A stretch of 64,000 nucleotides of DNA, from the IMG/VR virus record IMGVR_UViG_3300033153_004214, positions 64,001 through 128,000 of that record; one strand, 5' to 3'. This DNA is from a virus. The notes beneath the pieces are model-generated. The model made no database searches. It saw nothing but the letters and a program-made list of their open reading frames with translations, and was not told the origin of the DNA. This document shows, piece after piece, positions 27,279 through 57,827 of this stretch. Made by a program: the position numbers and the translations under genes. Every line of letters starts with the position of its first letter. Positions within the stretch are counted from its first letter, which is position 1.

Positions 27279-29402
27279 ATGACCGTGGCAGGTACTCCTC
27301 GCATTCTATCGCTGCACAACGAGCTTCCTGAGGTCGGCGTTGCCGAAATTGAGTATCCAGATGGCTCGGTCTACAAGTACGAGTTCGACGGTGGCAACGT
27401 CCCAATACTGAGGCAAAAGGCTCGTCATGAACCCGGTCTCGCCGCCAATATCATCAAGAAGATTGCCTACGAAACGAGGAAGACCAAAGAAGGAACGAAG
27501 GTTGTCCGTCAGCTACCGAAGGACAGGCTCCCACCCAAGCTGGGCTACGAGCAGACGAGGCTCTTTCCTGAGTCGATGACCTTCGAGGATATGATCAACG
27601 AGGCTGTAAGGATCACCGGGCCGACACTACCTCCTGTTGATCCACGACAGATGCGTTTGTTCCCTGAGGGTGATCCTCTTGAAGGATGGTACACTGGTTC
27701 TGTTTTTACTAACTACGACTCATGGGACGTAGTTGATAATGAGGACGATTTCGAGTCGGCTGTTTTACAGGTCGCATCTGTTGTAGAAAATATTGAAATA
27801 GAAATGGAGCAGTACACAGCCGAGTGGACACACCCGGAGATTGGCGAGTGGGTAGGGCTGGATGAAACCTATTCGAGTGTTGCTGATGCAGAGAGGGCTG
27901 CTCAGGAAGCAGCGTATGAATGGATTTCTGCGCGGACATCGGAACTAGAGTTGGAACGAGAAGAAGCAGAGGGTGATGAAGAAGCGTTAGCAGAAATCGA
28001 TGATGATCCTGATGAGGATGATATTGAAGTTCGTACAGACATCGCTAATACTGATGCCTACGTTAGTGGTCAAGTAACTTTCTATTCAGAAGAGTTCGAT
28101 GACACTGTAGCTACCTTCGATGTGTATGGTAATGGTGACTCATATTTGGTTAGTATCGATAATGAAGACTGGCTCTTAGCCATGCAGCAGTTAGGCTATA
28201 ACATCAAAGTGGGTTCCCACGAGGGTATGCCTGAGCGGAGACTAAGCGCCCATGTCACGGAGGCAGTACAGGTCCTTGGTCCTTCTCTACCATCGGAGGA
28301 CCCGAGGCAGTCTACCCTGTTCGCAACCAAGTTGGATGCTTCACTAGAGACAATCGTTGATCACCTTCTTCAAGCTGGGTTCAAGAGCCACCAGATGACA
28401 GCAGAAAACGGTGTGGCCAACGAAGATTGGATACCGGTTAGCCCGGGGATATTCCGCTATGTGTACGCAGATGAAGATGATGATCCAAATGGATGGCTGG
28501 ATGGTCCCTATGGTCGTGGTGGTATTTTCCTTGATGTGGGGGATGTAGGAGAGGAAGGAGTCAAGTTCATAGCAAACCTTGGTGCATCGTCATGGACACC
28601 AGACTGCCCGGAACAGAAGGATGCGGAACTGGCAGTGCGTGCCTTGCGTCGTGCAGGCTATGAGGTTAATGAACGGCCCAGTAGGAGTCGGATTCCTAGT
28701 TACCTTGCAAGTCCACCTACTAGCAGACGAGCGGAGTCCCTGCAGAGCTTCGAAGACATGGTTGCATTCTTGCGGCTGCAGGAGTCTAAGAATCCGGCGG
28801 CGAAGCAAATCCTCCTGTTGGAGGATGCACCTATTCGTGTCCAGACAGTCAATCGACATCTTGATACCTTTGGTAGACCAGCCGAACATGTCTACCAGAT
28901 AGTGGCGATCTCGCCTGATGTGAAGCTGGGTGTCGATGACACTGTGGTTGGTTACATTGACTATACGTACTTGCCTAGTGATGACCTCATCCACATCAAC
29001 ATGATCGAGGTCATGGAGGAGTACCGGCGACAAGGCATCGGTACAAAGATGATTCAAGCTTTGAAGCAGGAGTGGCCTGACCAGAAGATCAATTGGGGTA
29101 TGTTGGTGGGCCATGGTGCTGAGTTCAAGAGATCACTGGGTGAAGACCAGCAGACTCATGGCTATGCATGTGTTATGGGTGATATCCCCGATGTGAAGAT
29201 ATCACTAGATAACATGCGTGAGCAGATTGATCCCAAGGACCTTGTGGACGAAGACCTCGGTGATCCGAAGAAGGAGGGTCCTTGGGAGCAGGTGAAGATC
29301 GATAAGATCAAGGGCTACCACAGCGACGAGATCAAGGAGGTTGGCTCAACACACGTACTGACTGGTTCAAGGAAGTTGACAGTGGTAGCCATGATTCAGT
29401 AG
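27279..29402 (+). CDS. giant modular protein A, GNAT-like domain, putative internal head protein
   Basis: 707 residues. TFEDMINEAVRITGPTLPPV (about 103-122) and TEAVQVLGPSLPSEDPRQST (about 327-346) are two of nine (x)EAVxIxGPTP modules in the region. An acidic middle precedes the second. Residues about 590-625 read MIEVMEEYRRQGIGTKMIQA, the acetyl-CoA loop of a GNAT acetyltransferase. The frame ends at 29402, but protein-like sequence continues in the -1 frame (GGWLNTRTDWFKEVDSGSHD) into the next gene, so A and B may be one protein of about 1,200 residues. ATG 27279 follows GCAGAGG. Confidence 0.65.
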   Translation: MTVAGTPRILSLHNELPEVGVAEIEYPDGSVYKYEFDGGNVPILRQKARHEPGLAANIIKKIAYETRKTKEGTKVVRQLPKDRLPPKLGYEQTRLFPESMTFEDMINEAVRITGPTLPPVDPRQMRLFPEGDPLEGWYTGSVFTNYDSWDVVDNEDDFESAVLQVASVVENIEIEMEQYTAEWTHPEIGEWVGLDETYSSVADAERAAQEAAYEWISARTSELELEREEAEGDEEALAEIDDDPDEDDIEVRTDIANTDAYVSGQVTFYSEEFDDTVATFDVYGNGDSYLVSIDNEDWLLAMQQLGYNIKVGSHEGMPERRLSAHVTEAVQVLGPSLPSEDPRQSTLFATKLDASLETIVDHLLQAGFKSHQMTAENGVANEDWIPVSPGIFRYVYADEDDDPNGWLDGPYGRGGIFLDVGDVGEEGVKFIANLGASSWTPDCPEQKDAELAVRALRRAGYEVNERPSRSRIPSYLASPPTSRRAESLQSFEDMVAFLRLQESKNPAAKQILLLEDAPIRVQTVNRHLDTFGRPAEHVYQIVAISPDVKLGVDDTVVGYIDYTYLPSDDLIHINMIEVMEEYRRQGIGTKMIQALKQEWPDQKINWGMLVGHGAEFKRSLGEDQQTHGYACVMGDIPDVKISLDNMREQIDPKDLVDEDLGDPKKEGPWEQVKIDKIKGYHSDEIKEVGSTHVLTGSRKLTVVAMIQ

Positions 29403-29449
29403 CTCGATCTATCGCCGGAGTAGACAATGCCATCGAAGCTCGTAAGCAG

Positions 29450-30865
29450 ATGTTTGCTGATGGCTGGGTGCGTGTTGTTCAAAATGGCATCGAACTAGAC
29501 CCCAAGACAGCAAACTTGCGGAGTGTGAAGCATTTCGTTGATGTGATGAATGCGACTGAACTTTGGTTGGACTTTGTTGACGCTGGCAATCGATGCGTCT
29601 CCGTGAAGTTGGATCGTGAAGAGATGCTTGATCTGGATTCATGGGGTCAAGCCATGCTTCGTGCGGCGCGAGGAAAGAAGCAGGAATCCTTGACTGAGGC
29701 TGAAGAGTCCATGGGTCAGCAGTTCACTGATGCCATGGAGGACCTCATCGGTGAGGGCGCAGTCGGTTTCATGGGTCCTTTCATCATCGTCAATGACAAG
29801 GGCAACAAGACGGCGACCACGCTGGAGATGAGCTTCCATCCTGAGGGCTGGGGCGATCTTCCTCTCATGAACCTTGGCTTCATCGGTGTGGCCCCTGAAA
29901 ATCGCAGGAAGGGCAATGCAGGTAGAGTGTTGAACCTGTTGACCAGTGTTGCTGATAAGAAGGGTTGGCGCATGGGTCTTGATGTCCAGCCCACCAAGAT
30001 GAGGGGTGACCGTCGCGTTCCAATGACCAAGCGACAGCTTACTGTTTGGTATAAGAGGTTTGGGTTCAAGCCGGGCAAGTACGGCAACATGGTGCGGAAC
30101 CCTGTTGAGTACACAGTTCCTACGGAGCCGAAGCCGAATGCAGGGGTCAGGGTGATCGCCAATGATCCTACCGCTGAGAAGCCGTTGAAGCTGGATGATA
30201 AGACGCGAGAGATTGATATGGATGAGTCACTGATTGAAGGTAAACGTGTGTGTGCTTGGTGTAAGAAGGTCATGGGAACTAATAAAGAAATACCAGATGG
30301 GGAGGTATCACATGGTATCTGTAAGGCGTGTGTTGATAAGCTGAATAAGGAACTAGATGGATTAAAGAAGCCAAAGGACAAGTCGTTGGCTGAAGCAGCC
30401 GGTCCTCGTGAGGTGAACTGGCGCTACTCCGATGATGCACTTGGAATAGTGCCGTACCAGATGGGCTTGAGGGGCTATCAAGCGTACACAGTTAAGATGA
30501 CTATCGATGAGTTCCTTGCGCTCAACCCATCGCCTGACGCGAGCAAGGAGAGTCGTGCCTTCCTTGTAAGTGCGATGGAGAAGGGCGCTGCGATAGCTCC
30601 TCCCTTCATATATGTTGACTGGGAGGATGGCCACTGGAAAGTTTGGCAACATGAAGGTCGTACACGATCTACCATGGCTAAGCAGTTCACTGGTTCTGGC
30701 GATACTCTTATCCCGGTGACAATCTTCCCATACAATGAGAACTCCAAGTTGCATCTGGACAGGATGACTCCAGAGCAGAAGGAGCAGATGTACACGTTCC
30801 ACGCTGACAAAGCTGTGGTCAACCCAAACTTTGTGGTAGTCGCAAAGCCCAACCAACCTGTATAA
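29450..30865 (+). CDS. giant modular protein B, GNAT-like and ParB-like regions
   Basis: 471 residues from ATG 29450, though coherent sequence extends upstream to about 29306 without a start codon. MNLGFIGVAPENRRKGNAGR and KRQLTVWYKRFGFKPGKYGN are GNAT motifs. A CAWCKKVM...GICKAC zinc site is followed by SLAEAAGPREVNWR, an LxE-Ala site. The C-terminal part has IYVDWEDGHWKVWQHEGRTR and TLIPVTIF, a HEGRxR pattern seen in ParB-like folds. Possible packaged acetyltransferase. Confidence 0.6.
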   Translation: MFADGWVRVVQNGIELDPKTANLRSVKHFVDVMNATELWLDFVDAGNRCVSVKLDREEMLDLDSWGQAMLRAARGKKQESLTEAEESMGQQFTDAMEDLIGEGAVGFMGPFIIVNDKGNKTATTLEMSFHPEGWGDLPLMNLGFIGVAPENRRKGNAGRVLNLLTSVADKKGWRMGLDVQPTKMRGDRRVPMTKRQLTVWYKRFGFKPGKYGNMVRNPVEYTVPTEPKPNAGVRVIANDPTAEKPLKLDDKTREIDMDESLIEGKRVCAWCKKVMGTNKEIPDGEVSHGICKACVDKLNKELDGLKKPKDKSLAEAAGPREVNWRYSDDALGIVPYQMGLRGYQAYTVKMTIDEFLALNPSPDASKESRAFLVSAMEKGAAIAPPFIYVDWEDGHWKVWQHEGRTRSTMAKQFTGSGDTLIPVTIFPYNENSKLHLDRMTPEQKEQMYTFHADKAVVNPNFVVVAKPNQPV

Positions 30866-30887
30866 TGGTGTGGGGATGGAGAACCAG

Positions 30888-33800
30888 ATGGCAGATGATA
30901 GAACACTCGACTCCGAAGCTGCAAAAATGCTCACGCAGTATGAGGACGAGCCGACCTCGATCTGGCTCTACACTGACATGTCAGTCAAGGATCGTATGGC
31001 ATGGGCCTACCTCGCGGCAGACGCATTCAAGAGTGTCCCTTTCAAGAAGGACATGGTTAGGGCCTTTGTCGAGGCGATGACCAAGGTCACTGATCCTCCC
31101 GAGACTTTCTGGGAGCAGATCAAGGACAAGGACGATGCTCGGGCCAATTATCTTGGTCAGTTGGACTGGGACATCGAGACAGTCCCTCTTGACGAGATAG
31201 GTGTCTATCCTCGTTTCTCAAGCTACCCTAATGAGTGGTGTAAAGGTAACGTGGCTGAGACAGCTAAGCGCATTACGGAGGATGAGAGCCACCCGGACAA
31301 GAAGGCGAAGCTCCTTCAGATGTCTGAGAAATATCAGACAATCTTGAAATTCCTGCCGCCTATTCTAGTTCCGGGTGGCATCCTTCGAGGCGAACAGCCG
31401 GGTTACGAGTTGACGAAGTACACCTGCGATGACGGCAACCATCGGCTCGTGGTTGCTGCCCTTGCGGGTGAGAAGGAAGCTGTCTGCTTCGTGGGGAAAG
31501 CGAAGGAGCACAAGGAAGTTCCTGTCGCTGAACTGGAGCCGCAGAAGGCTGAGTCCTTGAAGCTGGGGCAGTCCTTGTCTGAAGCTGTTAGGATTAGTGG
31601 TCCAACTCCTGTATCTAGAGACCCACGACAAGCCAGTCTTTTGCCTCCTATTGATGCTATTATGTTGATGCATACTATCGGTGACAGACTTATGATCATT
31701 TCAGGCGATACACGTGATGGGGATGGCTGTACATGGAGTGGGCAACAGAGTATTCACGGGGGCATACTAAGAAATAAGTATGAGATTCTATTTCGTGACC
31801 CTGATACAGGCGGTTGGTTTATTGCGGAATTTTTCTCTTCTACCGACTCAGCAGCAGATGCCGAAGTTATTCTTCTACGAGTGCATAATAGTAATAACCC
31901 TAATGACGCTGAACTTATTCGTAATGTAGCTACTGAGTTTACCAAAGAAGGTTACATGGTAGGTCAAGCTGGTCCGAACTTGTTTGTCTACGATCCAAAT
32001 AGGGTTGACAGACCGCACGACTGGGGTCGCAGGCAAACGGAAGCAGTACAGATTCGAGGGCCATCTGCTGCCCGTACTGATCCTAGACAATTAGTTCTTT
32101 TTACTCAGCAGAAGAGGACGCTTGATACTGTGCTTGATCTTCTTCGTAGGGCCGGTTGGCTTGTTAACGATTCCCAATGGGGTGATCCTCGCAGCATAGC
32201 TCGGATGTACACGGTAAGTACCCCGAGTGATTATCCTATCAGGTTCTCAATATACACAGATAGAATCTTTTCCGGTCTTGTCGTTCTCGCGCACGTCATT
32301 CCTTTCCAACTGGTTGGAAAGGTAAGTGAAAACATCCGCAAGGCCATGCAGGTATTGGAGAATGCTGGCTTTGAGGTGACAGAAGAGATCAACAATAGGC
32401 TCTGGGATATCAAGCTTCCTGATGAGCCAATGCCGGAGCCGAAAGCTGTTGGCGAATCTACTTTTTCTTTGAAACTTGGGCAGTCCTTGTCTGAAAAGAA
32501 GAAGTTCAAGAAGATCAAGGGTGCTCCAAGCATCTTGGTAGTGGGTCTTTTGCCCGGCCAAGCGGAGCGAGTGCGCCAGAAGTTCCGTAATAAGGCCAAT
32601 CTTGCTTTTGTGGTCGAGAAGGATGTCAGTGCTCCTATCCCGCCGAGGGCTGACTGGGCTGTTGGTCTGACTTCATTCATCAGTCATAAGCAGGATGGCA
32701 AGGTAGCTGGTGTCTACGGGAAACGGTATCTTCGTGTGATCGGTGGCGTCTCTTCTGTTATAGCCAAGATTAATAACATTCTTGCTGGTAAGCCGTATGA
32801 GAGTCTTCCATCGCCAGCTACACTACGCGAAGCCGTGAATATCGCCGGGCCAAGTAGATCGCAGGAGCAACCGGGCCAACAACGGTTCTTCGGTAGTTCA
32901 TTCGATGACATGCTTGACCTACTGGCTGACAACAATTGGCAGATAGAACGTGACCCTGACCTAGAAAGATTGACTTTTGTTACCCGGGGGTATTCAGTGT
33001 TTCCACGCATAATGTATGGAAGCACAGTACGCAAGAGGAATCCTGTATCCATTTATCTCTATGCTCGGCAGTCACCGGGTCACCCGGTGACTGCTACAGT
33101 GATGAGTACAGGTGGATTTGTCAGTGAACACAATCTGCTTGAGATCATAAAACTGTTGAAGAATAGTCATTTTGATGCTACATTAATGACAAGCCCAACC
33201 TCCACGTTGCAGCCAGCATGGAGTGTGAAGCTTCCAACTGAACCGGTACCGACTGTCCAGACCGAGGCGGTCTACATTCAGGGGCCGACACCGGAGCGGC
33301 GAGATGTGCCGGGGCAGATGATGATCAGCCCTGTGTTTATTGGAGGGTTGGAAGTAGAAAAGCTCACTCGCCAAATCGAGTCAATAGGTTTGGTCAAGGT
33401 TCCTGAAGCATCCAGTGCAGACACCATTGTCTTCACAGATCGTGAAACTGGTGGTATTGTCAAACTCGTTATACAGAGTTCTGTCGGGGGTAATGAAGTT
33501 GTCGGTCTTATGCCTAATTTTGATCCTCATACAGTAGTCTCAGAGATACCGGAGGACGAATTTCCTGACATCAGGCGTGACCATGAATTGTATATGCGAG
33601 TAGCTACTGCCCTTCAGGCAATGGAGGATGTGGAAACTCGTTCGGTTCAAGCTGATGAGCTTTTAGGTGAAGCTATTCAGATCGCTGGTCCCACTCCCAA
33701 AAAATTAGATACTCCCGGACAAATGCGGTTAGGGTATGTTGGTGGTGGCCCAAGCATTGCATCAGGAGAATACCTCGTTAATCTGTTGAGGGGTGTTGGG

Positions 33801-35048
33801 TACCAACAGGTAGAATATCCTGTTGAGATTCCACAGCCGACTACTGAGTTCGACTGGAAGCGGTACAAGTTGCTTCAAGGTATCTATGTCCCAGAAGTTT
33901 ATAGTGGTGGAGCGCCAGTGGCGAGCAGTGAATGGCACAAGCAAACCTTGCCAGAGGCTATAGAGGTTCTTAATAGCCTCATGCAGAATGAACAGGTCAC
34001 TACAGGTAAAGTCAAGTTCTACCATGGGGAGCCTCGGCCAAACGCCCCCACAGCCGAGTTCGATGCTGAAGGTAATTTGACAGCGGCTGAAAGCGCATGG
34101 TTCAATGATATGAATAAGTATGGTTTCATAGCCCAGTTTGGAAAGCCGATTCAGCGAAAGCTTGCTGCGGCGCACCCAACAAGGGTTCGTGAGATTGATG
34201 AGATACGCCATAGCCGTCATGGTCAGGAGTATTGGGTTCTCATGTCACCGGGACCCAAAAGCAGGCGTGGTTATGTTTTCCTTGAGCATCAATACGCAGA
34301 TCAGTGGAGTGGGGAAGGTTCCGATCCACTTGATGCTGTATCGATACGTCCTGTGGCCGGTCCTAGCGATGCAGGACGTAAAAGGGACCAGCAGGCATAT
34401 GTTGATGCTTTGAACTTGATCTATAAGTCAGGTATCACACCTCTGTATGTTGATCCAGAAAAGATTGGCATAAGAGATCAGCCTGTTGCAAATTCGTCTG
34501 CATGCTTCTTTAGTGAGCCTCCAACAGAAGCCACTCGTGAACAAGTGATGACAAGAGTCTCTAAGTATGATCCCCATATTGGGGACGAGATGCTTGAGAT
34601 CACACCTCTGGGTGAAGCGGTTCAGATTGCAGGACCTAGTGGTGCAACAGAGACACCCGGACATTTGAATCTGTTCCTTGGCAGGAATTTCTACCGGATT
34701 AAGAATGAGCTACTCAAGCGGGGCTACAAAGACGAGGGTCGGTTGGGACTTGTAGATTCTTCCGCTATTCTGTCGGCTAAGGTAAGATTGCCGAATAACG
34801 AGTCAGTAGATGGCTACATGTCTCTGATTAGCTATGAAGATGATCAGGAAAATATCGGGCACACCTTCTTGTTCCCATATCATGCTCCAGACAAGACCAT
34901 TGTTGACTTCTCTGATAAGTTGGCCACCAGATATACTGGTGAGCTTCTGGATATGCTGGGTTACGAGATAGCTCTGTTTGGTGCTGGCTTTCGTGTAGAT
35001 GCTGCTCCTGAAGAGTTTACCAGAGCAGTGGAGAGTAGCCTTGGGTAA
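30888..35048 (+). CDS. giant modular protein C, six GPTP modules, ParB-like N-terminus
   Basis: About 1,386 residues. The N-terminal part has VPLDEIGVYPRFSSYPNEWC and CDDGNHRLVVAALAGEKEAV, a ParB-like nuclease-fold signature. Then come six modules: SEAVRISGPTP, TEAVQIRGPS, REAVNIAGPS, TEAVYIQGPTP, GEAIQIAGPTP and GEAVQIAGPS. Most are followed by an amphipathic helix such as TLDTVLDLLRRAGW. Between modules 2 and 3 lies a LVVGLLPGQAERVRQKFRNK domain like DUF2325. ATG 30888 is preferred (GGAG at 30878). Inferred polyprotein, cut at LxE-Ala sites. Confidence 0.65.
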   Translation: MADDRTLDSEAAKMLTQYEDEPTSIWLYTDMSVKDRMAWAYLAADAFKSVPFKKDMVRAFVEAMTKVTDPPETFWEQIKDKDDARANYLGQLDWDIETVPLDEIGVYPRFSSYPNEWCKGNVAETAKRITEDESHPDKKAKLLQMSEKYQTILKFLPPILVPGGILRGEQPGYELTKYTCDDGNHRLVVAALAGEKEAVCFVGKAKEHKEVPVAELEPQKAESLKLGQSLSEAVRISGPTPVSRDPRQASLLPPIDAIMLMHTIGDRLMIISGDTRDGDGCTWSGQQSIHGGILRNKYEILFRDPDTGGWFIAEFFSSTDSAADAEVILLRVHNSNNPNDAELIRNVATEFTKEGYMVGQAGPNLFVYDPNRVDRPHDWGRRQTEAVQIRGPSAARTDPRQLVLFTQQKRTLDTVLDLLRRAGWLVNDSQWGDPRSIARMYTVSTPSDYPIRFSIYTDRIFSGLVVLAHVIPFQLVGKVSENIRKAMQVLENAGFEVTEEINNRLWDIKLPDEPMPEPKAVGESTFSLKLGQSLSEKKKFKKIKGAPSILVVGLLPGQAERVRQKFRNKANLAFVVEKDVSAPIPPRADWAVGLTSFISHKQDGKVAGVYGKRYLRVIGGVSSVIAKINNILAGKPYESLPSPATLREAVNIAGPSRSQEQPGQQRFFGSSFDDMLDLLADNNWQIERDPDLERLTFVTRGYSVFPRIMYGSTVRKRNPVSIYLYARQSPGHPVTATVMSTGGFVSEHNLLEIIKLLKNSHFDATLMTSPTSTLQPAWSVKLPTEPVPTVQTEAVYIQGPTPERRDVPGQMMISPVFIGGLEVEKLTRQIESIGLVKVPEASSADTIVFTDRETGGIVKLVIQSSVGGNEVVGLMPNFDPHTVVSEIPEDEFPDIRRDHELYMRVATALQAMEDVETRSVQADELLGEAIQIAGPTPKKLDTPGQMRLGYVGGGPSIASGEYLVNLLRGVGYQQVEYPVEIPQPTTEFDWKRYKLLQGIYVPEVYSGGAPVASSEWHKQTLPEAIEVLNSLMQNEQVTTGKVKFYHGEPRPNAPTAEFDAEGNLTAAESAWFNDMNKYGFIAQFGKPIQRKLAAAHPTRVREIDEIRHSRHGQEYWVLMSPGPKSRRGYVFLEHQYADQWSGEGSDPLDAVSIRPVAGPSDAGRKRDQQAYVDALNLIYKSGITPLYVDPEKIGIRDQPVANSSACFFSEPPTEATREQVMTRVSKYDPHIGDEMLEITPLGEAVQIAGPSGATETPGHLNLFLGRNFYRIKNELLKRGYKDEGRLGLVDSSAILSAKVRLPNNESVDGYMSLISYEDDQENIGHTFLFPYHAPDKTIVDFSDKLATRYTGELLDMLGYEIALFGAGFRVDAAPEEFTRAVESSLG

Positions 35049-35571
35049 GATCATAGTCAATCTGCTCGAATCCTGCCTGCCACCATCTTCGTTTGAGGAT
35101 GCGGTGGACGCTTCTGTCTCAGGGGACCAAGGTCTTGCTGCGGCCTTCGTTCAGGGTCTTGGTGAGGCTGTTCGCATTTCTGGACCCACTCCTACACCGG
35201 AGACCTCCGGGCAGCAGAAGTTGTTCAATGTGAATGCTACAATAGAAGAGATATCCGATTTGTTGGCGAAGCGTTTCAACCGGGACATATCAGGTGGTGG
35301 GGTCCTGAAATTGTCGAAATTCCATGACCCTGAAACTGCCGGGCAGTTTTTACTGCGGCTTAACTATCAACAACCGTATTACAGGTACCCAAAATTGGAA
35401 CCAGTCGCTGGTATGTATGATCCTGCGGCGGCGCGAAGAATAGATCAGAATGCATTCGCAGATGCACTTCAGTACTTGAGTGACAACAAGATTCCATGGC
35501 ATCTTGTCAGGGGCGAGAACTATGCGATCATAGGAGAAGAAAAGCCATACATGGAGCAGCCACCAAGGTAG
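35041..35571 (+). CDS. small GPTP-module protein
   Basis: 176 residues from TTG 35041, overlapping the previous stop. SSFEDAVDASVSGDQ and LGEAVRISGPTPTPETSGQQ put both recurring motifs in one short protein, then TIEEISDLLAKRFNRD and a helix-beta domain ending WHLVRGENYAIIGEEKPYM. It looks like one module of the giant proteins on its own. Confidence 0.6.
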   Translation: MGKIIVNLLESCLPPSSFEDAVDASVSGDQGLAAAFVQGLGEAVRISGPTPTPETSGQQKLFNVNATIEEISDLLAKRFNRDISGGGVLKLSKFHDPETAGQFLLRLNYQQPYYRYPKLEPVAGMYDPAAARRIDQNAFADALQYLSDNKIPWHLVRGENYAIIGEEKPYMEQPPR

Positions 35572-35645: not shown

Positions 35646-38600
35646 ATGAAGCTGGACAAGGCAGCGGTTGCGGCGAAGATCGCGAAGTACTACCAGACCC
35701 AACTGACACAGGGTCCTGTGGATGTGGTGGTGTCCGCGTTCGAGGAAAGACCAGAAGGTGGTCATCTCGCCAAGGCGGAAGTCGCCTTCAAGACCGATGT
35801 CGAGTCGGGTAACGCCGATAAGATCGCATTGACCATCGGCTGCAGTGACGAGGGGGTCCTCGATTGGAGTAGCGCCGTTATCGATGCGACCGGCGATGAA
35901 AAGCCCGCGCCCTCTCTCGCCGCAGCGAGCGTCGATCCTGAGGCATTCAAGGACAGGAAACCTCCTGAGAACGATGAGGTGCCGACCCCTATGCCTGCTG
36001 ATGCTGCGAAGCCTGAGAAGGAGATGCCAAAGCCTGACTCAGGTGTCGAGTTTGTCACTGACGAGAAAACCGGTGGCGAAGCAACTCCAGCTGACAAGGA
36101 TCACCCAGCTGCTGCGCTCGCCATGGAGTCGAAGAAGCAAAAGCGGCGTGAGGCTCGCGCGAGGGTCAAGCCAGCCGATGAGCTTGGCTGGCCGACCGGC
36201 GATGCACTCCTCGTGGACGAGAAGACGATGCCTCGCGTGCGGATCAACGAGGATGGCACTGCGGTTGATGGTGAAGGCCAGACAGCGGAAGAGGATGGCT
36301 TCAGCATTGATGAACTCCTTGCAGACGAAGAAGCATCAGGTGAGATCGACTTCGAGTCGCTGCCTGAGTCGCAGCAGACGCAGCTTGCCGCAGCCGCGAT
36401 GGCTGGTGCAGCAGCCTCTGCCGGGGTAGAGGCTCCTGCAAGTATTGTTCACCCCCTCGAAGAGTCCATGGCTCCGGCTGCTCAGGTCACCGAAGATGAT
36501 GATGATGACGACGACAAGTACGACATGGATGGTGAACTGAACGCTGGTGAGCCGAAACCAGCGGAAGAGACAGCCGCCACAGGTGCTGTAGATACTTTCA
36601 TCAACAATCTGGCTGCGGACTTTGCGGACCAGAATGAGGAGACGATGCTCAAGTCCGTGGAAGCCTTCTGCTCATCTCTTGGTATCGATTGCACCGAAGA
36701 CATACTTAGCAGGGCGCGGGCGGCTATTGGCGGTGGGGCCAGTGACGCTGAAGATGTGGTCGCTGCTGAGACAAGTATCGTTACTATTGATCCAGTCATT
36801 GGTCTGGCCAACCTCGTTGGTGGTGTAGACGATGAGTTGGCTGAACCCGATGAGGAGACTGACGAAGAGGAAGACCTCATTTTCGATGAGATCGAGGACG
36901 AAGACGTTGAAGATGATATGGAGGCCGCTGCTGAGGAAGGCTGTCCTGCTCCCGGCAGTAAGATTAAGAGTAAAGGACAAGGGCGCGGTCTCGCACGTGG
37001 GCGGGGTAAAGGTCCGATAGGTGTTCCAAAGAATGAGGCTATAATAGGAAGAGGACGAGGGCTGGCCAGAGGCAGGGGTAGAGGCCCACTGGGTCGTCCT
37101 GCGCTCAATATCAGTGACGAGGACGTTGAAGACAACAAGGCCGCAGCTACTGCGGCTGGTTGCCCCGCTCCCGGTAGCAAAATCAGAAGCAAAGGCAAGG
37201 GCAGAGGTCTCGCACGAGGTAGGGGTAAAGGCCCTGTTGGTGTGCCTGTCAAAGAAGACAAGTCCAGCGGTTCTTCAGAGGAGGAAACCGCGCACGTGGA
37301 GGAGAGTGTCATGCGGAACTCTATGGTTGTCCGTCTTGGTGAGACCGCGAGTGTGAGGGGTATCGCTGAGGCGATCCACGAGCGGTTCCCTGAACTGAAG
37401 TACGTTATCCTTGAAGCAGAGGATGGCGAGGGGAGGCAGTTGCTGTTCAACGTCGATCCCGAATGGGACCTCGACGCCACAGTGAATCAGGTCAACGAGG
37501 CGCTGCAGGCCAAGGTGCTTCTGGCCGATGCGACGGCTGGTCCTGAACTGACCGAGGACGAGGTCGCGTCCTACAGCTTCGGTCTTGCTGGCGGTTCGCA
37601 GGGCATCGGCATGGACAAGGAAGGCTATCAGGGTCAGAAGAACCCGACCACGCAGAAGGACCCGAACTATGGCGAGAAGAACACCTCGCCCGGCCCCAAG
37701 AACCTCAGCGGCACGCCTGAAGGTGAGCAGGGTGGAGCGCAGGCTGCGGGTACCCAGCCTACCAAGGGTGATAAGAAGAAGCAGCAGAAGGTTGGCCCTT
37801 CCACGAATGATAGCGGCACTGACGGTTCGCCCGGCCCCAAAAAGCTCGCCAAGGTCAAGAAGGACGAGTATGGTGGTTCGGGCAACAAGTCCGGTGCCAA
37901 GAAGGCCAAGGAGTCCTTCGAGGACGCGATGACCACGTTCCTCACTGAGACCGTTGTTACGCATCTCAAGGAGCAGAACCCGTTCGCTGTCGAGGCGGAA
38001 GAGGAAGAAGAAGCCGACAGCGTCGATGCTGATGTCGCTGCGGAGATGGGTGCCGAGGAAGCCGACTACGGTGCCGAGTTCGCGGAGGCTCCTGACCTTG
38101 ACCCTGTGATTATCTCGATGGTGCAGGCGCAGGCCGACCACAGCCTTGAAGCCGCTCACGAGGTTGCCGAAGCCTACTTCTCAGAACAGGGCATGGAGTA
38201 CAGCGATGACATGCGCTCGAAAGTGGAAGAAATCTTCAAGTCCTTCAGTGAGCCTGCAGTTGCTGCTGAGGAGGAGGAAGCCGAGGAAGAGGTCGTGGTC
38301 GATGAGCCTGAGGCTGAGGGTGGCGAGGCCGTCGAGGTGGAGACCGAGGCTCGGGGCATGGAGTACGAGTCGATTGCCCGTAAGGTCCTTGGTGACGAAC
38401 TCTACGAGAAGATGATCTCGGCCAAGAAGCGCCTCAAGCAGGAGACCATGGAGGCCGTCGCGGATGACGAGAAGCTGACGCAGCGCATCCGCGAGCGTGT
38501 CGAGAAGGTCCTGAATGAGGAGTCGGGTGCCGGGTCCGTCATCACGCAGAAGGACCATAGTGGCCATCCTGACTCATGGCAGCGTGTTCAGATGAAGGCG

Positions 38601-39215
38601 GGAACCCGCACCAAGACCGGTAAGATCAAGCCCAATGTGAAGTTCAAGGGCAAGGTCCGCGTGGTCTGGGATGACGGGCATGAAGAGTTCATCGAGCCGA
38701 GCAAGCTTAACAACGTCGCTGGCAAGAAGAAGGCCGGTGGTGAGCAGGCGAAGGTGGGTGGCGATAAGGCCCCTCAGATGTCCACAAAGGAATGGGGAGG
38801 TAAGAAGGGGCTGGAGTCGATCCAGCGCGAGAGCGAGCAGCGTAGGCGTCTCGACACTGCCGTGGAGCACCTTGTACACGGCGGCAAGTTCCCTGAGAGC
38901 GAACTCATCGAGGTGCTCATCGAGCGGGCTGACGAATTCAAGGCTCCTCTCAAGGGTCTCGAAGAAGATGCTGAGGAGACCGAGGAAGAGGAGACCAAGC
39001 TCGAAGAGTCGAAGAAGGATGAGAAGGCTCCTGTCACCGAAGACGAAGACGGTGAAGAGGAGGGTGAGCTTTCCGAGGAGGAACTCGAAGAGATGGCTGA
39101 GGCCCTCCTTGATGACGAGGAGTTCACCATCATCTCTGAGGACATGGATGGGGGCGAAGAAGAGTTCAGCGTGACCCTTACCGAAGACGAGATGTCGGAA
39201 GTCGAGGACGAGTAG
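35646..39215 (+). CDS. acidic prohead-core-like protein with RG-rich repeats
   Basis: 1,189 residues, with runs of Asp and Glu (DDDDDDDKYDMDGE; EAEEEEEADSVD). A globular N-terminus of about 90 residues comes first. At about 430-535 lie GCPAPGSKIKSKGQGRGLAR and two further RGLARGRGKGP-type repeats, basic islands in an acidic chain. ESFEDAMTTFLTETVV (about 757) matches the recurring FExxVxxxL motif. Acidic scaffolds of T4-like proheads (gp22, gp67) are cut into small acidic peptides inside the head; this protein fits that role by composition and place. GGAGGGCACGAT precedes ATG 35646. Confidence 0.6.
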   Translation: MKLDKAAVAAKIAKYYQTQLTQGPVDVVVSAFEERPEGGHLAKAEVAFKTDVESGNADKIALTIGCSDEGVLDWSSAVIDATGDEKPAPSLAAASVDPEAFKDRKPPENDEVPTPMPADAAKPEKEMPKPDSGVEFVTDEKTGGEATPADKDHPAAALAMESKKQKRREARARVKPADELGWPTGDALLVDEKTMPRVRINEDGTAVDGEGQTAEEDGFSIDELLADEEASGEIDFESLPESQQTQLAAAAMAGAAASAGVEAPASIVHPLEESMAPAAQVTEDDDDDDDKYDMDGELNAGEPKPAEETAATGAVDTFINNLAADFADQNEETMLKSVEAFCSSLGIDCTEDILSRARAAIGGGASDAEDVVAAETSIVTIDPVIGLANLVGGVDDELAEPDEETDEEEDLIFDEIEDEDVEDDMEAAAEEGCPAPGSKIKSKGQGRGLARGRGKGPIGVPKNEAIIGRGRGLARGRGRGPLGRPALNISDEDVEDNKAAATAAGCPAPGSKIRSKGKGRGLARGRGKGPVGVPVKEDKSSGSSEEETAHVEESVMRNSMVVRLGETASVRGIAEAIHERFPELKYVILEAEDGEGRQLLFNVDPEWDLDATVNQVNEALQAKVLLADATAGPELTEDEVASYSFGLAGGSQGIGMDKEGYQGQKNPTTQKDPNYGEKNTSPGPKNLSGTPEGEQGGAQAAGTQPTKGDKKKQQKVGPSTNDSGTDGSPGPKKLAKVKKDEYGGSGNKSGAKKAKESFEDAMTTFLTETVVTHLKEQNPFAVEAEEEEEADSVDADVAAEMGAEEADYGAEFAEAPDLDPVIISMVQAQADHSLEAAHEVAEAYFSEQGMEYSDDMRSKVEEIFKSFSEPAVAAEEEEAEEEVVVDEPEAEGGEAVEVETEARGMEYESIARKVLGDELYEKMISAKKRLKQETMEAVADDEKLTQRIRERVEKVLNEESGAGSVITQKDHSGHPDSWQRVQMKAGTRTKTGKIKPNVKFKGKVRVVWDDGHEEFIEPSKLNNVAGKKKAGGEQAKVGGDKAPQMSTKEWGGKKGLESIQRESEQRRRLDTAVEHLVHGGKFPESELIEVLIERADEFKAPLKGLEEDAEETEEEETKLEESKKDEKAPVTEDEDGEEEGELSEEELEEMAEALLDDEEFTIISEDMDGGEEEFSVTLTEDEMSEVEDE

Positions 39216-39267: not shown

Positions 39268-41019
39268 ATGAAAGATCACGTGGATAGCCCAGAGGTCGAT
39301 GTCCTCATCGAGGGCAAGCGTCGGTTCGATGAGGTCATAGCTGACATTCCCATCGACCAGTCTTCTCGTGTCTACATGGTCCGCGTCAAGGATGGGATGG
39401 TTGACGATCAGGGCTGGATCACCGTTGACGAGGCTCGCAGGAAGAACGCTCTTGACCGTCGCAGATATGGCAAGACCATCAACCGCTACTTCAACAACAA
39501 GGACTTCGCAGGAGCCTACATCGATGACTCTACCGGTGCCGGTGAAGCAATGGGTCCTGAGATGCCCGGTGGGGAAATGGCTGGACCTCCTGATGTTGGT
39601 GGTACGCCCGATCTTCCTGAGGACCCGGCTCTTGCCGGTGGCCCTCAGGGCGGTGGCGAAGCACCTCCGCCAATGGAGCCGTTCGATCCCAGTATGCCAC
39701 CACCTCCTGAAGAGGCAGGGCTTCCGGGTACGGACGAGTTTCCTGAGCCGATGCCGGGTGGTGTGCTCGATACGATGGGGGAGGAGCCGGGTCTTGGTGA
39801 CGAGTTCAGCGACGACCTTGATGACGAGTTTAGCGACGACCTTGGTGACGAAGAGGACCTCTTTGGCGCGGGTGACGAACTAGGCGATATTATCTCCGGC
39901 GAGGAAGTAGAAGAAGAAGAGCCTTTCGAATTAGAAGTTCCTCGCCGCATCAGACTCGTTCCTGTCAAGGAATCAAAGGAGTCTTTTGAAAATCTCGTGG
40001 AGGACACGCTCCTTGAGATGTCGAACAGCACGGCTGCAGAGACATGGGCGCAGGGTGGCAGACTTCCACCGGGTCGGTTGGTTGGCGACCGGAGAAGGGC
40101 TGCACTTGCGTTCACTGACAACCGTGCGTATTCCTACGGTCTCCCTATCGCGCAGATCGATAGGGAGAACAATGTAGCTCGTGTTCACTCCGGCACGAGG
40201 CCAAGTGGGTACCGATACTCCATGACGACCACCAGCCACATCGAGATTGTGAATAATGCGCTCCACATGGCTGGGATCGAAACAGAGACGGCTGAGTTCG
40301 AGCATCCTGAGGGTGAGCATTTCGCTATGCCTAGCATGAGCATGGACATAGGAGGTTTGCGCTCCTATCAGGATGTGGAGGCTCCTGAGCTTCCGGTCGC
40401 GCAGCGACGTGAGATGCCACGGTACCGGCGTCCTCGCAGCCTGCAGTTGGGTCTACCGATTGGAGAATCACAGAAGGAAGCCTTCAAGGACGCTTGGATC
40501 ACGACTGAGCAGATGGAGAACATCTGCTCTGACTGTGCCAAGCAGATGAAGGAATCGAAGATCACCCGCGTTCGCGCCGATGTGTTCCTCCTTGGCGAGA
40601 AGAGTGAGCGGGACACCAAGGCATCCGGGGGTGACGGTTGGCCCAAGAAGGTGAAGAAGGGCCGCTTCACTGAGTGGTGCCGCAGGAACGGCTTCGAGGG
40701 CGGTGCCAGTGTGGCATGTGCCAAGAAGGCCATGGATTCGGACGACGCCTCCGTGCGTGGAATGGCCTCTTTCTATATGAACACTGTCAAGCCGGGCGGC
40801 AAGACTGCCAGCGCGGTGGGTGACAAGGAGGAGTCGATGCAGATCAAGGACACGAGCGAAGAGGGCGTCATGGAGGCCCTGATGGATGGGGACATCTCTG
40901 CTGCAGAGGCTGCGGAGATGTTGGAGAAGTGCAAGGTTCCACCCCAGTTCAAGTCGAAGCTGGACAACAAGGCGGCGAAGGTCAAGCGTGCCAAGAAGAA
41001 TGCAACCGACAAGAAGTAG
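39268..41019 (+). CDS. acidic structural-type protein with Cys-containing domain
   Basis: 583 residues. N-terminal 85 residues basic and globular, then a Pro/Gly/Asp/Glu-rich disordered stretch (GDEFSDDLDDEFSDDLGDEE), then KESFENLVEDTLLEMS (recurring motif), a beta domain, and near 440-510 an SDCAKQMKESKI ... GRFTEWCRRNGFEGGASVAC region known from phage proteins that end ..A.FYMN..K. The C-terminal 60 residues are helical and Lys-rich. Probably another head-core component. Confidence 0.6.
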   Translation: MKDHVDSPEVDVLIEGKRRFDEVIADIPIDQSSRVYMVRVKDGMVDDQGWITVDEARRKNALDRRRYGKTINRYFNNKDFAGAYIDDSTGAGEAMGPEMPGGEMAGPPDVGGTPDLPEDPALAGGPQGGGEAPPPMEPFDPSMPPPPEEAGLPGTDEFPEPMPGGVLDTMGEEPGLGDEFSDDLDDEFSDDLGDEEDLFGAGDELGDIISGEEVEEEEPFELEVPRRIRLVPVKESKESFENLVEDTLLEMSNSTAAETWAQGGRLPPGRLVGDRRRAALAFTDNRAYSYGLPIAQIDRENNVARVHSGTRPSGYRYSMTTTSHIEIVNNALHMAGIETETAEFEHPEGEHFAMPSMSMDIGGLRSYQDVEAPELPVAQRREMPRYRRPRSLQLGLPIGESQKEAFKDAWITTEQMENICSDCAKQMKESKITRVRADVFLLGEKSERDTKASGGDGWPKKVKKGRFTEWCRRNGFEGGASVACAKKAMDSDDASVRGMASFYMNTVKPGGKTASAVGDKEESMQIKDTSEEGVMEALMDGDISAAEAAEMLEKCKVPPQFKSKLDNKAAKVKRAKKNATDKK

Positions 41020-45123: not shown

Positions 45124-45290
45124 TGCGACTGAGCTTTGACCAGTTGATTACGGAAGCACTCCTTTTAGAGAAAAAGTCGGTGGTTGACGGCAAGAAGTGG
45201 TACCACTGCCATACGCACAGGGTCATGGCCATTAGGCCAACGTTGAAGGGTGCGATAAGCGCCTTCGATTTCATCAAGACCACGTCGTAG
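45123..45290 (+). CDS. small protein with T4 internal-protein-like N-terminus
   Basis: 55 residues: MRLSFDQLITEALLLEKKSV then a short basic body. T4 internal head proteins I-III begin MKTYQEFI(N/A)EA and carry the capsid-targeting signal cut after (I/L)xE; this start is closely parallel (SFDQLITEA). TAATG overlap with the giant gene before it. Strong candidate for a packaged peptide. Confidence 0.6.
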   Translation: MRLSFDQLITEALLLEKKSVVDGKKWYHCHTHRVMAIRPTLKGAISAFDFIKTTS

Positions 45291-45668: not shown

Positions 45669-46190
45669 ATGAATAGGGCTGAGGCAGTCTCTAAGTTGAT
45701 AGAGAGGATGCTTGACTTCACAGAACCTCTTTCATCGCAGCCGGAGGCCCATATACAACCGGGGATTTCGTATACTCCGGTTGAGTTCGGCATCAAGCAT
45801 GACTACGCAACTGAGCAACTGATTCGTGACACAATGGCTCGGCACAGTGTGGTTATTGTCGAGATCGATGACATCCCTCGGGAGCCTTCCAAGAATGTTC
45901 CGAAGGAACTACGTCAATTGGTGCGGAAGTTCAAAGGAGGCCCTGACGAGCAAAACCTTATATGGCATGTCAAGGCTCTTGTACCAGACGAGCCTAATGA
46001 CGAATTGGTCTACGATATTCAGGACGTGCTTGAAGAAACGTTCGGCCTGATGTATTTCGCAGTGAAGCACGATGCAGAGTGGGGTATTGATCGAAACCAG
46101 CGTGAGTCTCTCAACTTTTCTGACCTAGTTGACGGTCTCATGCGCGGGGATAAGTTGATTGAGGAGCGCAAGCGTGGGCGATCTCGCTAA
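45669..46190 (+). CDS. hypothetical protein of the structural block
   Basis: 173 residues. IERMLDFTEPLSSQ start, a beta middle (SVVIVEIDDIPREP), and ESLNFSDLVDGLMRGDKLIE near the end, a further copy of the FxxLVxxL motif. TAGGAGAAGTG precedes ATG 45669. Overlaps the next gene by 17 bases. Confidence 0.6.
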   Translation: MNRAEAVSKLIERMLDFTEPLSSQPEAHIQPGISYTPVEFGIKHDYATEQLIRDTMARHSVVIVEIDDIPREPSKNVPKELRQLVRKFKGGPDEQNLIWHVKALVPDEPNDELVYDIQDVLEETFGLMYFAVKHDAEWGIDRNQRESLNFSDLVDGLMRGDKLIEERKRGRSR

Positions 46191-50152: not shown

Positions 50153-50153
50153 G

Positions 50154-50414: not shown

Positions 50415-50422
50415 AACACTAA

Positions 50423-50496: not shown

Positions 50497-50519
50497 TCAG
50501 ATTTTCTTTCACAAATCAC

Positions 50520-50548: not shown

Positions 50549-50603
50549 TCCTACGTGAACGTTAGGTCTGGGAGCATGACTCCCGTAGGAAAGGACGGTC
50601 GCA

Positions 50604-50816: not shown

Positions 50817-50823
50817 ATGTGAT

Positions 50824-50897: not shown

Positions 50898-50919
50898 GCT
50901 ATGTTCTTTGACAACCAGT

Positions 50920-54842: not shown

Positions 54843-54853
54843 AAGGAGTAGCC

Positions 54854-54985
54854 ATGGTGATCTGGCCTCTTTGGCTGGTGTACTGGGTGCTTCTTTTCAG
54901 TATGGCTGAAGGTGGCATCGTCGCTACCGGATTCGCCTACTACCTCCTCTATTGCAACCTAGAATTCCCCAAAGATTCTTTCTAG
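54854..54985 (+). CDS. small membrane protein
   Basis: 43 residues: MVIWPLWLVYWVLLFSMAEG and GIVATGFAYYLLYCNLEF form two hydrophobic helices. AAAGGAG precedes ATG 54854, overlapping the tRNA 3' end region. Function unknown. Confidence 0.65.
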   Translation: MVIWPLWLVYWVLLFSMAEGGIVATGFAYYLLYCNLEFPKDSF

Positions 54986-54991
54986 TTCCTC

Positions 54992-55020
54992 TTGACAGCA
55001 TACGGACTTTGTCGTATATT
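54992..55020 (+). promoter_or_regulatory. sigma70-like promoter
   Basis: TTGACA (54992-54997), 17-base spacer with CATACG, TATATT (55015-55020). Near-perfect member of the family; drives the peptidase. Confidence 0.9.
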
Positions 55021-55043
55021 ACTTACATGAAAAGGAGACTGTT

Positions 55044-55859: not shown

Positions 55860-55875
55860 TCGGCCCTTTTCTGAC

Positions 55876-55903
55876 TTGATCTTTCTCACGTGGCCCGTAT
55901 ATT
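55876..55903 (+). promoter_or_regulatory. promoter with TTGATC -35
   Basis: TTGATC (55876-55881), 16-base spacer, TATATT (55898-55903) preceded by GCCCG. Start of the sugar-transferase run. Confidence 0.7.
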
Positions 55904-55923
55904 GCTATGGGTGAGGAGGCGTT

Positions 55924-56649
55924 ATGCCACGTGAGAAGTGCGGCGTGATCAGCATGGGGGCGGGCAAGAAGTACAATTCTGAGTTCAATCATATCCAAGA
56001 GCTTCGGATGATGGTCAAGATGCTCCGAAAGGTTCATCCTGACCTGCCCATTATGGTGTGGACCGCCCCTGTCAGGGAGGTGCCCGGGGCTGTCGTTCGT
56101 TCCATATCTAACCTTGTGGGTGCAGGGTGGTGGAAGAAGTACGAGAACGCCAAAGACGTTCCTTGGGGCGGCAAGTTCCGAGTCATCAATGGCTTCAAAC
56201 TCCTAGCTCTCAAGGATGCTCTTAAAGCATTCGAGACAGTCCTCTGGCTGGATGGTGAAGTCAGGGTCATGAAGAAGCTTAATCCGATCCTCGACCCAAA
56301 AGAAGACTTTGATATCGCCATGGCCCGCGACTACGGGAACAAAGGTCTTTGTGACTGGTGGAATGGTGGCGTGATCGTTGTTCGCAACACGCCGGGTGGC
56401 CATGCGGTCCTCGACGACGCATGGAAACGGTGGGTCGCTGAGAAGAGACTATCTGAACAAGCCATGATCAGTCGATCCATCAAGCAACTCCGTAAGGACA
56501 GGGTGATCAAGTTTCGTGAGTTGAACAACCGTATCTGGAATGTGCGACCGGGCCTTGCGTCGAGTATGCCTATACCGGAGAGGAAGCACGCTGCGATCCT
56601 TCATACCCGGGGTCATCCCTTTACGGGAGACGAGAGAATCTGGAGCTAA
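55924..56649 (+). CDS. nucleotide-diphospho-sugar transferase-like glycosyltransferase
   Basis: 241 residues. FETVLWLDGEVRVMKKLNPI is the sugar-nucleotide binding strand with a DxE in place of DxD, FDIAMARDYG and CDWWNGGVIVVRNTPGGHAV the acceptor and product strands seen in GT8/GT77-like enzymes. GTGAGGAGGCGTT precedes ATG 55924. First gene of the transcript that runs to the window end. Confidence 0.75.
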   Translation: MPREKCGVISMGAGKKYNSEFNHIQELRMMVKMLRKVHPDLPIMVWTAPVREVPGAVVRSISNLVGAGWWKKYENAKDVPWGGKFRVINGFKLLALKDALKAFETVLWLDGEVRVMKKLNPILDPKEDFDIAMARDYGNKGLCDWWNGGVIVVRNTPGGHAVLDDAWKRWVAEKRLSEQAMISRSIKQLRKDRVIKFRELNNRIWNVRPGLASSMPIPERKHAAILHTRGHPFTGDERIWS

Positions 56650-56651
56650 CC

Positions 56652-57827
56652 ATGAATCGACTTCAGGAAGCACGACGGCGAATCCTAGAGATGACGGGCC
56701 GAGACCTCTGGGGTGGTATTGACTGGGATTTCATTTCGATGGCACAGCACTTTAATGCTGTGCAGGACCTTGGCACCCGGTTCTCTGGCGTTGATGGTGA
56801 CATGGTTCACTTCGACACACAGTCCGAGAGCACGCCGGGGCACGAATGGCATCAGTGGATTCGGATGACTGAGCTACCGGATGTCATTGAAGACCCGGAC
56901 ATGACCATACAGGACAAGGTCAGGCTGGCGCTACAGGGTGATCTTCAAGTCCACTGCAACTGCTTTACCGGGGATGTGAAGGTTCGTTTGTTGGACGGTC
57001 GAGAGCTATCCTTTGAGGAGATTTGGGAAGAGTTTGGTTCCAAAAAGTCATTACGGGTCTGCTCTTCTGATGAAAATGGTAACTTTGTTCCCAAGAAGGC
57101 CACCTGTATCAAAACGCGAAAGGTCAAGAAGCTCATTCGAGTGACCTTGGACAATGATGAGTCCTTCACCTGCACTCCAGATCACAAGATCAGGATGCGT
57201 GATGGTTCTTACCGGAGGGCAGACGGGTTGAATCTAAAGGATAGTCTGCTATCCTTGTTTAAGGTTGGGGTTATAGACAACCATAAGGTTGTTTCAGTAG
57301 AGCAGCTATCAGTGTCCAAGCCAGTCCAAGTCTATTGTCTCAATGTGGCTGGGACTCATAACTTTGCACTGGTTGCTGGGGTCTACGTGCACAACTGTCC
57401 TGCGTTCAAGTATTGGGGCTACCAGTACATCACTACGCAGCTTGGGGCGGCTGTGACCCCCGAGCATCGACCACCCAACGTAAGAAACCCGCAGCGCAAG
57501 GGAGACGTGTGCAAGCACCTCGCTTTGGTGCTCAGGGTTCTTCCCTTTTGGTGGAACAACATCGCTGGGGAACTTGCCAAGCAAGGGTACGACCGATTCA
57601 CTCAGCCCAAGGTTCAGCAGCAAGGTGAGCAGGAGCGGGCACAAGCTGACCAGATACAGCAGGACGATGACCAGCAGAAGGACTTCAACCAGCAGACTAG
57701 ACAGGCTTTCTTACGGGACCTGTGGGGTAGAACTGGGCGACGAGAACGGGGAGAGGAATCTCTCAAGAGGGGACGGCGTTGCAAAACGTTCGAGGAGCTA
57801 GTGGAAGAACAACTGAACTCTGTATAG
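56652..57827 (+). CDS. SWIM zinc-finger protein interrupted by a mini-intein
   Basis: 391 residues before splicing, 246 after. Removing residues 104-248 joins LQVHCN to CPAFKYWGYQYI, restoring CxCP...KGDVCKHLALVL, the SWIM zinc site (C-x-C-xn-C-x-H). N-terminal 100 residues are helical and include FISMAQHFNAVQDLGTRFSG; after the finger comes a Gln-rich region and the end TFEELVEEQLNSV, another FExLVE copy, linking it to the head-block proteins. The extein depends on splicing to form its zinc site. Confidence 0.85.
   Translation: MNRLQEARRRILEMTGRDLWGGIDWDFISMAQHFNAVQDLGTRFSGVDGDMVHFDTQSESTPGHEWHQWIRMTELPDVIEDPDMTIQDKVRLALQGDLQVHCNCFTGDVKVRLLDGRELSFEEIWEEFGSKKSLRVCSSDENGNFVPKKATCIKTRKVKKLIRVTLDNDESFTCTPDHKIRMRDGSYRRADGLNLKDSLLSLFKVGVIDNHKVVSVEQLSVSKPVQVYCLNVAGTHNFALVAGVYVHNCPAFKYWGYQYITTQLGAAVTPEHRPPNVRNPQRKGDVCKHLALVLRVLPFWWNNIAGELAKQGYDRFTQPKVQQQGEQERAQADQIQQDDDQQKDFNQQTRQAFLRDLWGRTGRRERGEESLKRGRRCKTFEELVEEQLNSV
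56961..57395 (+). other. mini-intein (Hint domain, no homing endonuclease)
   Basis: 145 residues. First residue Cys (CFTGDVKVRLLDGRELS, block A), SFTCTPDHKIRMRDG (block B with Thr and His), then VYCLNVAGTHNFALVAGVYV (block F) and final HN followed by Cys+1 (block G). All residues for standard splicing are present. No LAGLIDADG or HNH insert fits between B and F, so it cannot home by itself. Confidence 0.9.

Follow-up and report, generated by a model that had tools for sequence, protein, structure and literature searches.

The internal proteins IPI, IPII and IPIII of phage T4 carry a capsid-targeting sequence (CTS), which is N-terminal and occurs once per protein. According to passages of PMC9026906, the T4 prohead protease gp21 cleaves after L/I-x-E; in IPIII, residues 4 and 7 matter for targeting and residues 8 and 10 for processing, and an aspartate at position 10 blocks cutting while targeting is kept. 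C-terminal processing is also already in print in these passages, gp21 removing a C-terminal piece of T4 Alt as well, and a targeting role is suggested there for the propeptides of gp21 itself; they describe no tag repeated between domains. Here we analyse a 64,000-nucleotide stretch of the virus record IMGVR_UViG_3300033153_004214 (the window, positions 64001–128000 of a record of 145,011 bases), in which short peptides of the form FExLV recur in a gene cluster (27.2–47.3 kb of the window, 6,598 amino acids (aa) of open reading frame (ORF) translation). With a probability of about 0.65, judging from sequence, we propose that these peptides are capsid-targeting tags similar to the T4 CTS, acting together with a gp21-type cleavage that would free domains from polyproteins. 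Common to both would be a short peptide with an aromatic residue at position 4, hydrophobic residues at 7 and 8 and, in a minority of the copies here, a putative cut glutamate at 10, carried by unrelated cargo in a phage with a protease and head of T4 type.

In SPN3US and phiKZ, several internal head proteins are cut after xxE by the prohead protease, and the paralogues gp53 and gp54 have an identical N-terminus (passages of PMC5694885). In these giant phages only the protease has a propeptide that is not N-terminal; two of the propeptides have 20–24 residues and the rest 111–254 (passages of PMC10052503), and neither these passages nor those of PMC5694885 mention a chain of separately tagged units. 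For phage P1, an N-terminal stretch of 30 residues of DarB is enough to load a reporter into heads, and BLAST finds no N-terminal consensus among the Dar proteins (passages of PMC9024508). Polyvalent proteins are long multidomain chains, GNATs included, which are predicted to be packaged and injected; passages of PMC5512222 liken them to RNA-virus polyproteins, so that this likeness of packaged multidomain phage proteins is already in print, and propose their release via embedded peptidase domains, with no repeated interdomain tags. Among the matches listed for the open-access PMC literature (titles and abstract openings), no paper announces targeting peptides repeated between domains. Relative to T4, what is new here is that the putative tags are found inside chains (seven pattern sites in ORF G) and at chain ends, the C-terminus included, that they are paired with putative cut sites, and that they stand on tandem, chained copies of a unit as well as on solo ones.

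The head of this phage is of T4 type, with a gp21 (S77) protease. Outside the window, the record encodes a Peptidase_S77/gp21 protein (PF03420; record positions 133000–134511, 503 aa, E 8e-12), a Gp23 capsid protein (PF07068; E 1e-39) and a Portal_T4/gp20 protein (PF07230; E 2e-46), all above the Pfam cut-off, and it also has matches to tape measure and baseplate wedge proteins.

The FE motif in the cluster

The initial annotation had listed 14 FExLVExxL-like peptides, every one of which lies in frame where it had been placed, starting at positions 27579, 28746, 35089, 37914, 39982, 41074, 41371, 42871, 43402, 43717, 44287, 45132, 46113 and 57786. Thirteen are inside ORFs of 173–1356 aa and one, SFDQLITEA, is in an ORF of 55 aa. 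The motif lies within 25 residues of the called start only in the 55-aa ORF, ORF D and ORF G; the remainder are internal, and one is C-terminal. The features concerned are the following (window positions; ↓ marks a putative cut bond).

27279..29402, + strand: ORF A, 707 aa, two EAVxIxGP-headed modules and then a GNAT acetyltransferase domain
27579..27605, + strand: TFEDMINE↓A in ORF A, the FE motif fused to an IxE↓A site with T4 CTS spacing
27.75 kb: DFESAV, a further pattern match in the cluster
28254..28322, + strand: VTE↓AVQVLGPSLPSEDPRQSTLF junction in ORF A, the glutamate being residue 328
28746..28772, + strand: SFEDMVAFL in ORF A, upstream of the GNAT domain
29450..30865, + strand: ORF B, 471 aa, (L/I)xE↓(A/G) sites after residues 83, 102, 263 and 315
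30888..35048, + strand: ORF C, 1386 aa, six tandem modules, each headed [LQ]xE↓A[VI]x[IV]xGP
31581..34676, + strand: span of the ORF C junctions, with glutamates at residues 232, 385, 648, 793, 928 and 1243 (31581, 32040, 32829, 33264, 33669 and 34614)
35041..35571, + strand: ORF D, 176 aa, one module on its own, SFEDAVDAS (35089) lying close to the N-terminus and LGE↓AVRISGP at residue 42
35646..39215, + strand: ORF E, 1189 aa, acidic, RGLARGRGKGP-type repeats and SFEDAMTTFLTE↓T at 37914
39268..41019, + strand: ORF F, 583 aa, SFENLVEDTLLE↓M at 39982
41053..45123, + strand: ORF G, 1356 aa, pattern sites at 41074, 41371, 42607, 42871, 43402, 43717 and 44287
42.61 kb: IFERAM in ORF G, a further pattern match
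45123..45290, + strand: 55-aa ORF starting MRLSFDQLITE↓A (MRLSFDQLITEALLLEKK...), organised like a T4 internal protein
45669..46190, + strand: ORF I, 173 aa, with the weaker copy NFSDLVDGL at 46113
56652..57827, + strand: intein-containing protein, 391 aa, with a C-terminal motif copy, ending KTFEELVEEQLNSV

From ORFs A–F (27.2–41.0 kb) we derived the pattern F[ED].[MAL][VIM], which was then counted in the five other ORFs of the cluster; it misses NFSDLV, and TFEELV (57786) is outside the cluster. The five ORFs held 8 matches against a shuffle mean of 0.30, a count reached in 0 of 5000 shuffles; this hold-out was unblinded, all copies having been seen beforehand, and the D alternative is absent from ORFs A–F, without which 6 of the 8 matches stay. 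In the remaining 137 proteins of the record (33,843 aa) there were 7 matches against 4.7 on shuffling, so that outside the cluster there is no clear enrichment. Because shuffling understates natural rates (21 matches against 7.7 in T4), we added a natural background of 17 sets: T4, the remainder of this genome, and 15 contigs whose capsid proteins are related to the one of this phage, near-duplicates among them. Its 65 matches in 312,677 aa correspond to 1.37 expected in the cluster, where 14 were found (p 2.7e-10), and the excess persisted when ORF G was left out (7 found, 1.09 expected, p 1.4e-4). The highest background rates were 5.6 per 10,000 aa, in the related contig G003, and 4.2 in T4, the latter of which would give about 2.8 matches in the cluster. 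In a motif-free count of gapped triples (acidic ORF E excluded), FE..V and F..LV came top in the cluster after QQQ-type runs, the best of 20 shuffles being roughly as extreme as either alone, and in a scan for short peptides common to proteins the FE motif was not at the top in this genome. The motif is real, its presence being confirmed by these counts. They also refute an equal frequency in other proteins of the same genome, one of the two outcomes that the annotation had named as fatal to its proposal, as the cluster is enriched on the natural background.

That natural proteins exceed their shuffles in FExLV-like matches would suit another explanation, in which the peptides are no more than amphipathic helices of the ordinary kind, or open the domains of a repeated family as their first helix, and recur through the paralogy and helix-rich nature of the ORFs; diverged modules are indeed common to ORFs A, C and D. 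We regard this as unlikely, given that matches in the cluster are some ten times as frequent as in the natural background.

The GNAT of ORF A matches Pfam Acetyltransf_1 (5.8e-8, residues 567–613 in the 722-aa reading from 27234), and DUF5661 (PF18905, 9.3e-11) occupies residues 900–950 of ORF G, some 10 residues past the site at 43717. No chain of the cluster had more than one known domain (Pfam, PHROGs), and of the domain families listed for polyvalent proteins, which include two GNAT families, none but GNAT, taken as a whole, was matched. ORFs B and E had no Pfam or PHROG match at E 0.01.

The C-terminal copy is in the 391-aa protein, which contains an intein splicing domain (Pfam 4.7e-11). 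Its homologue in G003, 48% identical over 96 N-terminal residues, is without the intein and ends IGFRDLVETLLGGASEAS; both proteins have a C-terminal F(E/R)(E/D)LVE preceded by a differing stretch, a likeness that was judged by eye, the FRDLV of the homologue being outside the pattern. Used as a query, the G003 homologue had no match in 50,697 phage records, and IMG/VR returned only G003 itself. A SWIM-like label for the 391-aa protein, suggested by its Cys/His pattern, was set aside.

Putative cut sites and the junction repeat

A [LIV]xE whose glutamate falls at +5 to +11 from the phenylalanine was found at 11 of 14 cluster sites, against 13 of 65 background matches (Fisher p 5.6e-5) and 25 of 208 other phenylalanines in the same proteins (p 1.2e-7). 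When position +5, which counts the motif's own LVE, was left out, the fractions were 9/14 and 21/208. The FE tag looks like one half of a cassette, and ordinary helices lose ground here, 52 of the 65 background matches having no [LIV]xE nearby. In the T4 record, ipII and ipIII carry the CTS MKTYQEFIAE↓A; the same spacing is seen in TFEDMINE↓A and in MRLSFDQLITE↓A, the start of the 55-aa ORF, whose ATG overlaps the stop codon of ORF G, and DFEGLVEE↓S has a glutamate at the T4 cut position too.

A second element is a stretch of 21 residues resembling xxE-A[VI]x[IV]xGP[TS]...PxQxxLF, which opens a module of about 135 or more residues and occurs nine times, twice in ORF A, six times in ORF C and once in ORF D; TFEDMINE↓A in ORF A is also the first of these junctions, its glutamate being residue 108. 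The E, A, G and P of the junction are invariant in 9/9, and the 21 residues are 38–62% identical in the pairs that BLAST aligns there, while the modules behind have often diverged past recognition. A low-confidence model (pLDDT 58, built on nine paralogues) has the junction unstructured, residues 1–39 being mostly below pLDDT 50, followed by a domain of modest confidence; the low values at the junction may stem from the shallow alignment as well as from disorder. For the module fold, the same low-confidence model gave no PDB match with E below 0.001. A conserved interdomain peptide of this kind is compatible with a cut site.

We infer core binding, cleavage, presence in virions and ejection. 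During assembly of the prohead core, each tag would bind the core, and the tagged protein or the whole chain would thereby be trapped inside. The gp21-type protease would then cut at the E↓AVxIxGP junctions and behind the [LIV]xE motifs that lie in a tag or next to one, releasing from the polyproteins individual small proteins that would remain with the DNA and might be ejected into the host.

The peptide could instead dock the chains, left uncut, to a target other than the core; the portal, a factor bound to DNA or, after ejection, a protein of the host would be examples. To this reading we give slightly less credence than to the helices. It draws on the 11 of 14 FE copies that have no glutamate at the T4 cut position (which, if they are tags, would target but escape cutting there). 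The QxxLF with which several EAVxIxGP junctions end (window 30888–35571 and 27279–29402) resembles sliding-clamp binding peptides, another point in its favour. The coupling to [LIV]xE argues against it, as do two arrangements found in related contigs, described below.

In the region of the FE motif (window 27279–45290), a glutamate followed by S or N lies within 9 residues before 10 of 14 copies, and before 12 of 208 other phenylalanines; this element was noticed first and counted after, and is not used as evidence.

Putative tags in other letters in related contigs

Related contigs were found in IMG/VR via the capsid protein, and twelve were examined in full or nearly so; G025, found through its AAA unit, was added later. 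In G010, G011 and G025 the candidate tag reads IExAIDxLLxE and is N-terminal, internal and C-terminal. The patterns for these contigs were written after the copies had been seen, and 200 shuffles were made for each. G010 had 17 matches to the loose pattern against 2.0 on shuffling (maximum 5), and 9 against 0.03 (maximum 1) when the cut glutamate was included; the corresponding counts were 19 against 5.0 (maximum 13) and 5 against 0.14 (maximum 2) in G011, and 11 against 1.4 (maximum 6) and 6 against 0.05 (maximum 1) in G025. Of the pattern matches in G025, those lying in the terminase gene, gene 28187 and gene 30593 were set aside as probably due to chance. G003, G006 and G014 had 7 loose matches each, against 1.1–1.9. 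With these patterns the present phage had 10 loose matches against 4.4, and 0 against 0.1 with the cut glutamate.

In G010 (54 kb), variants of the N-terminus MAxNEIxKAVDxLVxE are found on six proteins whose remainders do not align, which again argues against a helix inherited with its domain. These six account for 12 of the 16 above-threshold N-terminal pairs, all pairs in 20 shuffles having a mean of 0.9 and a maximum of 3. Internal copies are found at residues 555 and 904 of a 1068-aa chain and in proteins of 691 and 945 aa. In G011 (135 kb), 11 proteins share 13 copies, of which 6 are N-terminal and 7 internal; two of the proteins have two internal copies each. Between the terminase and the portal of this contig five genes were called, all of them bearing the tag, a location that speaks against docking to a target other than the core. 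A motif-free short-peptide scan of G011 returned tag copies as the four most connected sites (degrees 8, 7, 7 and 7), with 40 sites of degree 3 or more against 13 in one shuffle.

In G025 (36 kb), six proteins bear the tag at the N-terminus and a chain of 976 aa has it three times, once at its N-terminus; two copies are C-terminal, and the protein with one of these also starts MSIRTIVDQLITE↓A. The tag genes of G025 lie between the portal (Portal_T4) and a terminase 68% identical to that of G011 over 618 residues. A tag-headed neighbour of 313 aa aligns, from the tag onward, to the 976-aa chain at residues 9, 339 and 625, which are the positions of the three tags of the chain. In G011 and G025 a solo gene encodes an AAA unit behind a tag (65% identical), and in G010 the unit, again behind a tag, heads the fused 1068-aa chain (56–58%). 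This joint occurrence of tag and unit in solo and fused genes is the second arrangement that docking on uncut chains does not readily explain. In the present phage, ORF C with its six modules and ORF D with one repeat the fused and solo arrangement of the G025 units, and a GNAT is found in motif-bearing proteins of both this phage and G011.

A broader form of the proposal, that T4-related environmental phages package whole polyproteins in which each domain has its own address-and-cut cassette, portable and arisen in two letter sets, is more tentative, and we would put it a little below even odds. Such a cassette would let domains be gained, fused and split and yet stay packaged. Convergence of FExLV and IExAID on one mechanism is as possible as homology; bridge-like forms (FIETMIDRMLTE in G025 and EIDTLVDQLLE in G014) were picked by eye.

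Several results weigh against capsid-targeting tags with cleavage. The resemblance to the T4 CTS seen in the initial annotation is borne out by the T4-type head and by the matching spacing at two sites, but it is a likeness of geometry, with a glutamate at the T4 cut position in only 3/14 cluster copies. Its proposal that the motif marks many proteins, with several copies in one chain, gains from the similar arrangement in relatives, but ORFs B and C, both large, are without any FE motif. At the junctions, the P3 residue is L or I in 6/9, V in one (VTE) and Q in two (QTE in both), and counting [ILV]xE[AG] by itself reveals no enrichment of the cluster (24 matches; 19.4 on shuffling). The sole (L/I)xE↓(A/G) site of the capsid protein is not kept in relatives; the capsid protein was therefore dropped as proof of cleavage specificity. 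Among the relatives, N-terminal pairs are weak in G011 (7 in the tag group of 23 in total; shuffle mean 7.6, maximum 14) and in G025 (3 against a shuffle maximum of 2), and the AAA unit occurs in a contig of 395 kb, IMGVR_UViG_3300032132_000001, without a clear tag. No such repeated tag was found in the portions examined of G012, G013, G015 and G018, all but G015 being pieces shorter than 64 kb. A matrix built from 23 copies (G010, G011 and G025) did not recover the sites of this phage, placing 5 of its top 20 hits in the cluster, where 3.3 are expected, its single best hit in this genome being in ORF E. Tag-like N-termini that would form a family were not seen in this genome.

That the chains are scaffold or core proteins like T4 gp22, gp67 and gp68, cut up and mostly lost, is improbable: ORF E is long and acidic, the T4 record has LxE/IxE sites and T4 core proteins are cut to multiple fragments by gp21 (passages of PMC9026906), but the tagged proteins include enzyme-like folded domains (GNAT, AAA ATPase, DUF5661) and the unit borders in G025 coincide with tags.

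In IMG/VR the exact peptide DPIEQAIDM had six matches on four G011 stretches and one in another contig, the latter lying in no called gene that bears the tag and being taken as chance. Among T4-like N-terminal peptides only G016 exceeded its shuffle maximum (4 against 0.5, maximum 3); four of its proteins start with sequences like MxxFKxxLxE, closer to the CTS of T4. A second common N-terminus, similar to MxxIRExIKxIL, is found on otherwise different proteins of G011 (47455, 63234 and 64978), G014 (5347) and G025 (20506).

Consequences, homologue searches and neighbouring genes

If capsid-targeting tags are what these peptides are, the internal head proteome of such phages could be read from sequence via address-and-cut peptides, including cargo inside long proteins of no known function, and many candidates for proteins delivered at infection could be named, for example acetyltransferases and AAA ATPases. 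It would also suggest that such protein sets grow by duplication and fusion. The tags might also be put to use in filling phage heads with proteins, tagged at either end or chained together.

No relatives of ORF G were found in phages, in IMG/VR, in 10 related contigs or in 13 more contigs, none of ORF F in IMG/VR and none of ORF C in the 10 related contigs; the EAVxIxGP DNA pattern yielded no relative in IMG/VR either. BLAST of 12 cluster-related proteins against the genes of the related contigs (G025 excluded) matched DUF5661 of ORF G to G014 (E 9e-5), a GNAT weakly to G011 (E 0.02), ORF H to four contigs and the protein at 56652 to G003, besides matches internal to the intein. An alignment of the capsid over 84,980 genomes gave two weak hits.

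The two ends of the 145-kb record probably adjoin, because G003 runs from a homologue of record gene 139134 on to a homologue of record gene 4870. The record has tRNA-Pro, tRNA-Ile and a tmRNA gene (tag AKDDKKVIKVDFTLRKGTSVRVAA) at window positions 49613–51319, and a peptidase of the M28 family at 55044–55859 (Pfam 1.6e-17). A terminase-like protein (record positions 54785–57769) has 994 aa, against 623 in G011, and matches primase and helicase-loader PHROGs too; it contains a stretch, YLLGVLLGDGDISG, that resembles an intein or homing nuclease. C...C-rich repeats are found in proteins of the relatives (G013; G010 41045), and C...CQ is among the top over-represented triples of this phage outside the cluster.

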